Source: Polynucleobacter sp. MG-5-Ahmo-C2 (GTDB lineage: Bacteria; Pseudomonadota; Gammaproteobacteria; Burkholderiales; Burkholderiaceae). Taken from it: DNA of 64,000 nucleotides. The stretch lies in the NCBI RefSeq assembly GCF_018687735.1, contig NZ_CP061304.1:992001-1056000 (forward strand), given 5' to 3'. A program made the translations under genes and the position numbers. The stretch's first letter is position 1. The number at the start of each line of letters is the position of its first letter. Shown in pieces: positions 62,224 through 64,000 of the stretch. The notes under the pieces were generated by a model that saw nothing but the letters and a program-made list of their open reading frames with translations, did no database searches and had not been told where the DNA came from.

Positions 62224-63123
62224 TTACTCACTAGATTTTGTATTGAGCCAGCCCACCAGCACCTGAACCGCTTCACTACTGATACCCTGCCACTGCTCTT
62301 GATCAACCCTGGGGTCACCAAGGACACTCGTCAGTTTTGCGCTCATAGCTGTTTTGAGGTCCTCTGGTGGCTTAACCCCTTTCCAGGCCAGCAGCAAGGC
62401 ATCGGTAAAAAGTATTTTGGTTTCGGGATGGCGAAATTGATTTTGGGCTTGAATGCCCCAATCAAATGCCAGGTGGATATAGTCTGTCTGTCGTCTTTTT
62501 TCTTTAGGGAACTTCAACAATTCAATCAAGGCACTTTGGGCAAAGACAGTTGCTGGAAATCCTGGCCATAGATCAAATTGATTAATCCACCCCATCAACC
62601 CCCGTTTTGTTTTGAGGATGGATTCAGCAATGCATTTAGGTCCATCCGCAGTACTGAAGAGATTTAAATCATGGGTCAAGGAGTTGAGGGCAGTGCCAGA
62701 TTTAATGGCACCACCGGTAAAAAAACCTTGCGCTACGTGCGCTAGCTTTTCAAACACAGGGTCATTGGGCTTAAAGTGATAGAGATAAACATAGAAAAGG
62801 GGCTCAGCCCATTTCATAGCCCTCTTGGCGATCTTGAGAGAGCGTGGCAGATGCATCTCAAAATATTCGTTTAAATAATCAGCTCGATTGGATAGGCTGC
62901 GCTCTGGCTCAAGCCAAATGGCATAGGGAAAATAACGCCAATAGCGTTGATCTACTTGATGACCCGAAAGCTGCGCCAATGAGAAGCGAATAAAAGTACG
63001 CTCACCTACCGCAAAAATATCGGGTGGGAGGCCCATTCTTTCAATCGATATTTTTTGTGAAGCAATCCTTTGCGCAGCGCTAGCTAGCAGAGGAAAATCT
63101 TCTGGTAATACCGCTAAGTTCAT
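62224..63123 (-). CDS. ZorC/EH-signature-like protein (short form), possible defense component
   Basis: A 299-residue protein. The N-terminal half is helical with aromatic-rich blocks (YWRYFPYAIWLEPERSL, FYVYLYHFKPND). Near the end it reads LGDPRVDQEQWQGIS, then AVQVLVGWL (Gly269 to Leu293), which resembles, from memory, the GDPR...W...WL segment of EH-signature ZorC proteins. Those are roughly 500-600 residues, and the conserved Glu/His half should follow, but here the gene stops six residues after WL. The start overlaps the stop of the ZorB-like gene by four bases. Not certain: an HMM search is needed. Confidence 0.5.
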   Translation of the reverse strand: MNLAVLPEDFPLLASAAQRIASQKISIERMGLPPDIFAVGERTFIRFSLAQLSGHQVDQRYWRYFPYAIWLEPERSLSNRADYLNEYFEMHLPRSLKIAKRAMKWAEPLFYVYLYHFKPNDPVFEKLAHVAQGFFTGGAIKSGTALNSLTHDLNLFSTADGPKCIAESILKTKRGLMGWINQFDLWPGFPATVFAQSALIELLKFPKEKRRQTDYIHLAFDWGIQAQNQFRHPETKILFTDALLLAWKGVKPPEDLKTAMSAKLTSVLGDPRVDQEQWQGISSEAVQVLVGWLNTKSSE

Positions 63124-63956
63124 TTTGACAATATAGGCTTGCTATTCGGAGCCTGAATTGCATTACTGCTTGGTGTAGGAGTAGCTGCAGGCATTGTTGG
63201 GGCTGTTGGAGTGCTAGCAGCATCTAAAGCCTCTCTAGCCGCTTTGCCTTTTTTGGAATCCGGCTTGAACGCTAAGATAAAGCGCAACTCTACCCGACGG
63301 CTTTTTTCTGCATCTTCTAAGCCGAAGCTTTTGACTACCCGCTTATCGGCATAAGAGCTAATGCCAAAAACATCTAACTTGCGCTCATTTTGATAGGACT
63401 GAGGCTTGCCCTCAGTCAGCACTTCGTAAACTGCACGTGCGCGATCTAAACCCAGGTGCCAGTTGGTGTAATTACCCTGTTGAAGCGGCTTAGAATCGGT
63501 ATGGCCTTCAATAAAAATGGTTTCAATCTCTGCCTCCTCATCATTGGGTGGGCAGTCTAATGGTCTGGCCGCTCTTTCTGAGTGGACATAGCAAGGCAGA
63601 ATCTTAATTAAAGACTCTCTTGCCTTTTTTAATGTCTGAGTGGAATTGTCATTCAGAACAGCACTGTTAAACCCAAACAAAGCATCTGCTGGTAAACCAA
63701 TGACGCCCGATTGTGGATCAATCACCACATTCAGGCCGGCCTCTTTAAACTTTTGCCCGATGATCAACACGGCGCTAGCAAGGGGATCATTCACACTCTC
63801 GCCTCTTTGAATAGAATCGACCCGCTGAGAGAGCATCACCACCATGATGATGAAAACAAACAATAAGCCAATCATCAGATCACTTGCCGAAGCAAGATAG
63901 CCAGCTTCTTCAACCTTTTCAGATTGTTTATTGTGGCTTGATGGTAAAAAAATCAT
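63120..63956 (-). CDS. MotB/ZorB-like OmpA-domain membrane protein
   Basis: A 278-residue inner-membrane protein. A single helix (about 25-43) contains Asp26 in SASDLMIGLLFVFI, the place of the ion-carrying aspartate of MotB/ZorB. It is followed by an OmpA/MotB peptidoglycan-binding domain (residues about 85-228) with FGFNSAVLND, IEGHTD (150-154), NWHLGLDRARAVYEVL and SRRVELRF, and a Pro/Ala/Thr tail. The ATG is nine bases from a stop of an upstream frame. As part of a motor-like complex with an MotA/ZorA partner, presumably just outside the window, it would anchor to the cell wall. Confidence 0.8.
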   Translation of the reverse strand: MIFLPSSHNKQSEKVEEAGYLASASDLMIGLLFVFIIMVVMLSQRVDSIQRGESVNDPLASAVLIIGQKFKEAGLNVVIDPQSGVIGLPADALFGFNSAVLNDNSTQTLKKARESLIKILPCYVHSERAARPLDCPPNDEEAEIETIFIEGHTDSKPLQQGNYTNWHLGLDRARAVYEVLTEGKPQSYQNERKLDVFGISSYADKRVVKSFGLEDAEKSRRVELRFILAFKPDSKKGKAAREALDAASTPTAPTMPAATPTPSSNAIQAPNSKPILSK

Positions 63957-63965
63957 GGTGCTGTT

Positions 63966-64000
63966 CTAACTTTGATGGAGATATCCGTTTAAGTCTTTGG
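63966..64000 (-). CDS. C-terminal end of an upstream gene (partial; tentative)
   Basis: The minus-strand frame ending with TAG at 63968-63966 is open to the edge and reads KDLNGYLHQS. If real it is the last part of a gene that starts beyond the window and ends nine bases before the ZorB-like start, as would be expected of a MotA/ZorA-like partner. Eleven codons are too few to identify it. Confidence 0.3.
   Translation of the reverse strand, partial: KDLNGYLHQS

Follow-up and report, generated by a model that had tools for sequence, protein, structure and literature searches.

A putatively reduced type I Zorya operon near the flagellar genes of one Polynucleobacter clade

Zorya systems are thought to convert a puncture of the cell envelope into local destruction of DNA through ZorC and ZorD. 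According to the parts of the published account drawn on here (PMC11890865), ZorA and ZorB of Zorya I form an ion-driven ZorA5B2 motor, defence requires the peptidoglycan domain of ZorB as well as the tail of ZorA, and the deletion of any single component abolishes protection. A lineage that kept the motor, its tail and the N-terminal half of ZorC under the constraint of core genes, but had no part for degrading DNA, would uncouple sensing from killing and would reveal what that half of ZorC does alone. We found no title or abstract describing a Zorya system with a short ZorC and without ZorD (most subscription papers were beyond reach), and nothing that joined Zorya with Polynucleobacter or with a flagellar gene cluster.

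The window, i.e. the whole analysed stretch of 64,000 nucleotides (G000:C1:992001-1056000), lies within the single-contig genome (1.82 Mb) of Polynucleobacter sp. MG-5-Ahmo-C2. The first-pass annotation had placed a ZorB-ZorC-like pair at its right edge, and both genes are indeed encoded there on the minus strand, with a 4-bp overlap, ATGA. It had also proposed extending the contig to the right in search of a MotA/ZorA gene; beyond the window edge, 32 bp upstream of zorB, we found zorA, whose product matches PADLOC ZorA1 with E = 6e-23. The genes follow each other in the order EAL-like gene, HTH, Adhesin_E, zorA, zorB, short zorC:

62224..63123, minus strand: short zorC, 299 aa; helical half present, EH half absent; matches PADLOC ZorC1 and PF15611
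63120..63956, minus strand: zorB, 278 aa; Asp26 in the single membrane helix, an OmpA-type peptidoglycan-binding domain and a variable C-terminal tail
63989..64000, minus strand: final 12 bases of zorA, including the stop codon, the part of the gene that falls in the window
L002:5989-7587 (G000:C1:1055989-1057587), minus strand, outside the window: the whole zorA gene, 532 aa; matches PADLOC ZorA1
L002:7671-8063, minus strand, outside the window, upstream of zorA: Adhesin_E gene (PF16747, 4.5e-23)
L002:8133-8669, minus strand, outside the window, upstream of zorA: HTH gene (HTH_19)
L002:8801-8880, minus strand, outside the window, upstream of zorA: conserved 80-bp element
L002:8929-10527, minus strand, outside the window, upstream of zorA: EAL-like gene, with a partial Pfam match below the cut-off

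An HMM search of the ZorB- and ZorC-like proteins, which had likewise been suggested, assigned both to Zorya: ZorB matched PADLOC ZorB1 (E = 5e-54) and the short ZorC matched PADLOC ZorC1 (5e-25) and, above the cut-off, the Pfam EH_Signature family. Against the NCBIfam Zorya models, ZorA and ZorB scored below the curated cut-offs (e.g. 86.2 of 190 bits for ZorA, and 28.9 of 400 bits for ZorB against ZorB1), and the short ZorC had no match. In profile searches ZorA consists of a MotA-like core and a cytoplasmic tail; it has no match to Pfam MotA at E up to 0.01. ZorB was described at first pass as a MotB-like protein with a membrane Asp26 and a peptidoglycan-binding domain, a description that holds: its OmpA match (32.4 bits) is above the cut-off, and Asp26 pairs in the alignment with Asp24 of the 8vvn ZorB, while its match to MotB_plug (16.3 of 24 bits) is below the cut-off. 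All seven zor+ genomes keep Asp26 in ZorB and both Thr131 and Ser171 in ZorA. We take Thr131 and Ser171 to be the ZorA ring residues, from an alignment with 8qyd and from the numbering reported for E. coli Zorya (Hu et al. 2025). Thus, the features of an ion motor of the MotAB/ZorAB kind are present, namely the membrane Asp in B, the putative Ser/Thr ring in A and the peptidoglycan-binding domain in B. The ZorA tail has 85-87% invariant columns, versus 78% at residues 96-215; the last 46 residues of ZorB are variable (20% invariant columns).

The third protein had been called a shortened ZorC that lacks the conserved Glu/His half, and this description stands. Its alignment with ZorC1 halts at position 312 of 462, and the one with PF15611 (42.1 bits, cut-off 27.5) at position 268 of 423. 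The Glu and His residues of ZorC reportedly have a functional role in E. coli Zorya, as studied by Hu and colleagues in 2025. Four database relatives of 453 aa are 49-52% identical to the short ZorC and then continue for ~160 further residues, which constitute the EH half. In the low-confidence predicted structure of the long form (mean pLDDT 59.4, falling below 50 from residue 394) the chain is helical to ~303 and then mixed strand-and-helix from 306 to 441; the short form is predicted to be all helical (mean pLDDT 60.8). Among the zor+ genomes, residues 1-120 are the best conserved part of ZorC (80% invariant columns, 47-61% in the remainder).

Since ZorC measures 296-299 aa in 7/7 zor+ genomes, its shortness is not a sequencing error, and with short forms also among the database entries a frameshift or assembly error could be ruled out as the cause. 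The 17 ZorC protein matches comprised 12 short forms (272-299 aa, the 272-aa one from a 1.3-kb contig), one piece of 196 aa from a 1.2-kb contig and four proteins of 453 aa. A second short ZorC, P0012 (294 aa, 54% identical), comes from a 4.8-kb metagenome contig. The ZorC tree (18 rows, P0011 omitted) places P0012 with the long forms (support 90/98), at the end of a long branch, so that it may have lost the EH half independently.

The observation that no ZorD follows the ZorC-like gene was extended to the genome level: a whole-genome search with one ZorD query found none in the six zor+ genomes and recovered the positive control, G129. We also considered whether an EH half or ZorD might lie further along. 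Queried with two ZorDs and with the EH half of each of four long ZorCs, the loci of the seven zor+ genomes yielded no remnant in tblastn (E up to 1); the sole match there covered 23 residues (E = 0.41). PADLOC scans of the neighbouring proteins recognised no ZorE, ZorF or ZorG.

A complete relative was found on a contig of a metagenome-assembled genome (CANJHO010000120.1, here L056; 8.4 kb, labelled Legionellaceae), which encodes ZorA of 534 aa, ZorB of 252 aa, ZorC of 453 aa and ZorD of at least 823 aa, the last leaving the contig end and matching PADLOC ZorD1 with E = 1e-208. The products of our locus are 66% (531 residues), 80% (237 residues) and 52% (297 residues) identical to ZorA, ZorB and ZorC of L056, respectively. 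Because of this identity to a complete zorABCD, the locus is best read, from its gene content and protein similarities, as a reduced (shortened) type I Zorya operon and not as an unrelated motor, and we infer that the complete form is ancestral to the reduced one. The first-pass annotation had left the choice between a reduced or divergent Zorya-type system and a non-defence motor complex; on descent, the ZorA gene and the zorABCD relative support a reduced Zorya, which may or may not still act in defence.

The Legionellaceae label of L056 may be wrong, as the contig is so small. Within the genus, G129 carries a canonical zorABCD (L015:4409-11569, G129:C3:88408-95568; 635, 259, 502 and 988 aa) that adjoins a type I methyltransferase gene (L015:564-2102). 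By eye, the neighbours of the two complete systems (L056:1-2200 and L015:564-4187) look alike: each has a small protein whose sequence opens with M(R)MQTTQHAMQRMSQRG, and a longer protein containing ELALQLLAWEKLSR. This resemblance is a hint that the two systems share a defence island and that the binning is doubtful.

Searches of 151 sampled Polynucleobacter genomes returned ZorC matches in seven: six short forms including our own (77-100% identity), and G129, whose canonical 502-aa ZorC matched weakly (37% over 70 residues). A ZorA search of the 151 genomes retrieved the same seven. The family sample gave one match among 299 genomes (our own) and the order sample two among 399, the second being weak; this match, in G486 (30% over ~117 residues, E = 6e-4), was set aside, as no Zor-like layout was seen at its locus. 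A scan of the contig database yielded five loci, four from Polynucleobacter and L056, and newly added P. campilacus (L057), which has the same block of genes and is the seventh zor+ genome. Plasmids had no match to the locus and no match to viral contigs was confirmed, so carriage by a plasmid or virus was dismissed.

All seven zor+ genomes have one and the same gene order between the EAL-like gene and zorC, with gaps of 19-86 bp between the genes from HTH to zorB and a 4-bp overlap of zorB and zorC. Downstream of zorC the genomes vary: dusA lies within 4 kb in four of them and other genes are found in three. In one of six relatives (G014) zorC is followed by a relative of the 86-aa gene, and in none by the baeRF-like gene (ORFs of at least 75 aa, by eye); these two genes are not part of the block. 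A neighbourhood fixed in all relatives with no link to defence genes had been named at first pass as a finding that would refute its reading; this largely applies upstream, where the order is fixed (7/7) and the scanned neighbours show no clear defence link, but downstream the genomes differ.

Median dN/dS values over 20 pairs (the near-identical pair G110/G108 was omitted from 21) were 0.048 for zorA, 0.050 for zorB, 0.126 for zorC, 0.171 for HTH and 0.051 for the EAL-like gene; Adhesin_E gave 0.069 (19 finite ratios), and dusA, the comparison gene, 0.040 (six pairs from four genomes). The ratios are rough because silent substitutions approach saturation (median ps 0.53-0.66, pn/ps of these genes 0.08-0.26). 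Judged from these rates, the constraint on zorA and zorB is core-like and reflects strong purifying selection, not fresh damage. That the operon is a functionless remnant of Zorya in decay, as the missing EH half and the missing ZorD could suggest, is therefore hardly credible: all three frames are open in 7/7 genomes at 75-96% protein identity, and their dN/dS is 0.05-0.13 at a median ps of 0.53-0.60, close to saturation of the silent sites.

The genes upstream of zorA share the distribution of the operon. The same 6/151 genomes contain close relatives of Adhesin_E (84-89% identity), of the EAL-like protein (88-90%), of ZorA (85-94%) and, among the matches listed, of the HTH protein (64-82%). 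At E 0.001, HTH matches were found in at least 147 of the 151 genomes, the best outside the six being 56% over 75 residues among the matches listed, and Adhesin_E matches in 108/151, the best outside the six at 34%; the EAL-like protein had matches in three more genomes of the 151, at 29%. The Adhesin_E protein opens, by eye, with a signal-like stretch. The HTH protein has a single C-terminal membrane helix (154-172, from hydropathy) and matches PADLOC regulators, including capH (1.6e-8) and RmrA. A PADLOC scan of ten neighbouring proteins left nine without a match at E 0.001; the tenth, a PAS histidine kinase, had a weak match (3e-6) over the shared kinase region. An Rfam match inside zorA, on the opposite strand and with a score below gathering, was taken as chance.

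In the alignment of the EAL-like/HTH intergenic region from seven genomes, 61 columns of an 80-bp block are invariant, versus 29 of 218 in the rest. Inside the block lies a 14-bp palindrome, TAGTGTATACACTA, which with at most one mismatch has exactly one site per genome in each of the six zor+ genomes and none in the two controls (G083, G129). The natural reading is that TAGTGTATACACTA is a putative operator for the HTH protein. The flagellar cluster is flanked by a pair of EAL-like paralogues that are 75% identical (G000:C1:1058932-1060527 and 1128434-1130047); among the 151 genomes, close copies of both were found in the six zor+ ones and in no other.

The flagellar cluster of our genome extends from 1067394 to ~1126510 (most genes were named by eye, and nine proteins were checked against Pfam). 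MotA_N was found in 49 of the 151 genomes, among them all six zor+ ones, in each of which motA is ~12-20 kb from zorA by coordinates. A segment of the cluster (G000:C1:1076089-1087471) holds genes for MotA and MotB, for a second protein with MotB_plug, and for a protein of 645 aa that carries a TarH ligand-binding domain, even though the genome search found no CheW domain. The gene at L100:1394-4672 (G000:C1:1067394-1070672) encodes a protein of 1092 aa that has a Flagellin_N domain and internal repeats almost identical to each other; the other flagellin checked is much shorter (272 aa).

The proximity to motA and the common kind of ion motor might suggest that ZorAB is an accessory stator that drives or brakes the flagellum. 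We consider this very unlikely: canonical MotA is present in 6/6 zor+ genomes, our genome has MotB and the second MotB_plug protein besides, ZorA and ZorB give no MotA match and a sub-threshold MotB_plug match, respectively, and the operon is found in just six of the 49 MotA_N-positive genomes. Control by the flagellar sigma factor was rejected as well. With a consensus for this factor, which gave near matches before some flagellin genes, no sigma28-like site with up to three mismatches was found upstream on the operon strand in G000, the only zor+ genome scanned, where the operon has only matches with four mismatches, on the opposite strand. CheW domains were absent from all six zor+ genomes. 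Among six zor- genomes with MotA_N, CheW matches above the cut-off numbered six in G083, six in G034, nine in G094 and three in G087; G010 and G061 had one match below the cut-off and none, respectively, and there was none in G129, which has no MotA_N match. As the zor+ genomes have this absence in common with G061, replacement of chemotaxis was dropped and is not claimed.

A tree of MotA, built from 10 of the 12 loci (G078 and G150 omitted; other MotA_N-positive genomes contributed no locus), unites the six zor+ genomes in one clade (support 100/99). The flagellar proximity and the co-occurrence with HTH and Adhesin_E therefore count as one evolutionary event, and may be coincidence. The flagellar surroundings prove nothing, though they make motility the first place to look.

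Because the operon is strictly conserved near flagellum genes without its DNA-cutting half, the motor may have been recruited to a different function. At about even chances, we regard it as a Zorya-derived, peptidoglycan-anchored ion motor that has lost its nuclease arm and now has a clade-specific envelope-sensing or motility-linked role, nuclease-based defence being gone. In this scheme, ZorA and ZorB would form the usual 5:2 ion motor with ZorB as the anchor to peptidoglycan, the short ZorC would bind the ZorA tail, and the state of the envelope would still drive the motor. Motor activity or envelope state would be relayed to the short ZorC, and perhaps to the membrane HTH protein, instead of to DNA cleavage, as no nuclease step would be left within the locus; the HTH protein would control expression of the operon by binding to the palindrome. 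A more specific version is tentative and has the odds against it: in this one clade of freshwater bacteria, the domesticated motor, the membrane-attached HTH protein and Adhesin_E would make up a mechanosensor, anchored to peptidoglycan, whose signal goes either to transcription or to the flagellum. A role outside defence is favoured by the lack of one component (ZorD) and the halving of another (ZorC), compared with a Zorya I in which all are needed, by the core-like constraint, the fixed gene order and the palindrome with its single site per zor+ genome, and by the location of the canonical Zorya of the same genus (G129) elsewhere, by a type I methyltransferase gene. Against it, PADLOC still scores A, B and C as Zorya, the HTH protein matches PADLOC regulators, and presence in 6/151 genomes is as patchy as that of a defence system at the genus level.

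The main rival is a reduced yet active anti-phage system, in which damage to the envelope is sensed by ZorAB and the phage is stopped by the short ZorC alone, by an ion leak through the motor, or by a host nuclease recruited in trans. The Zorya scores of its three proteins, the intact motor and peptidoglycan residues, the complete zorABCD relative and the resemblance of the HTH protein to regulators such as capH all fit such a system. We nevertheless consider it less likely, as every component was needed in the Zorya I tested in the consulted parts of PMC11890865, ZorD is absent while the constraint is core-like, the ten scanned neighbours include no clear defence gene, and plasmid matches were absent and viral-contig matches unconfirmed. 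If the motor has indeed been taken over for another role, it would be an example of a defence motor moving into such a role.

Compared with the known systems, the locus is closest to type I Zorya, with which it has homologous ZorA, ZorB and N-terminal ZorC half in the same order; it differs in lacking ZorD and the EH half of ZorC, in the addition of the upstream HTH and Adhesin_E genes, and in an order kept near flagellar genes in one clade. The ZorAB motor is also common to type II (ZorABE) and type III (ZorABFG) Zorya, but PADLOC puts the type I models on top for ZorA, ZorB and ZorC of this locus. The flagellar MotAB stator is a related ion motor and the locus lies near flagellar genes; it differs from that stator in that its ZorA has no MotA match at E up to 0.01, its ZorB matches MotB_plug below the cut-off, and a canonical MotA is encoded separately.
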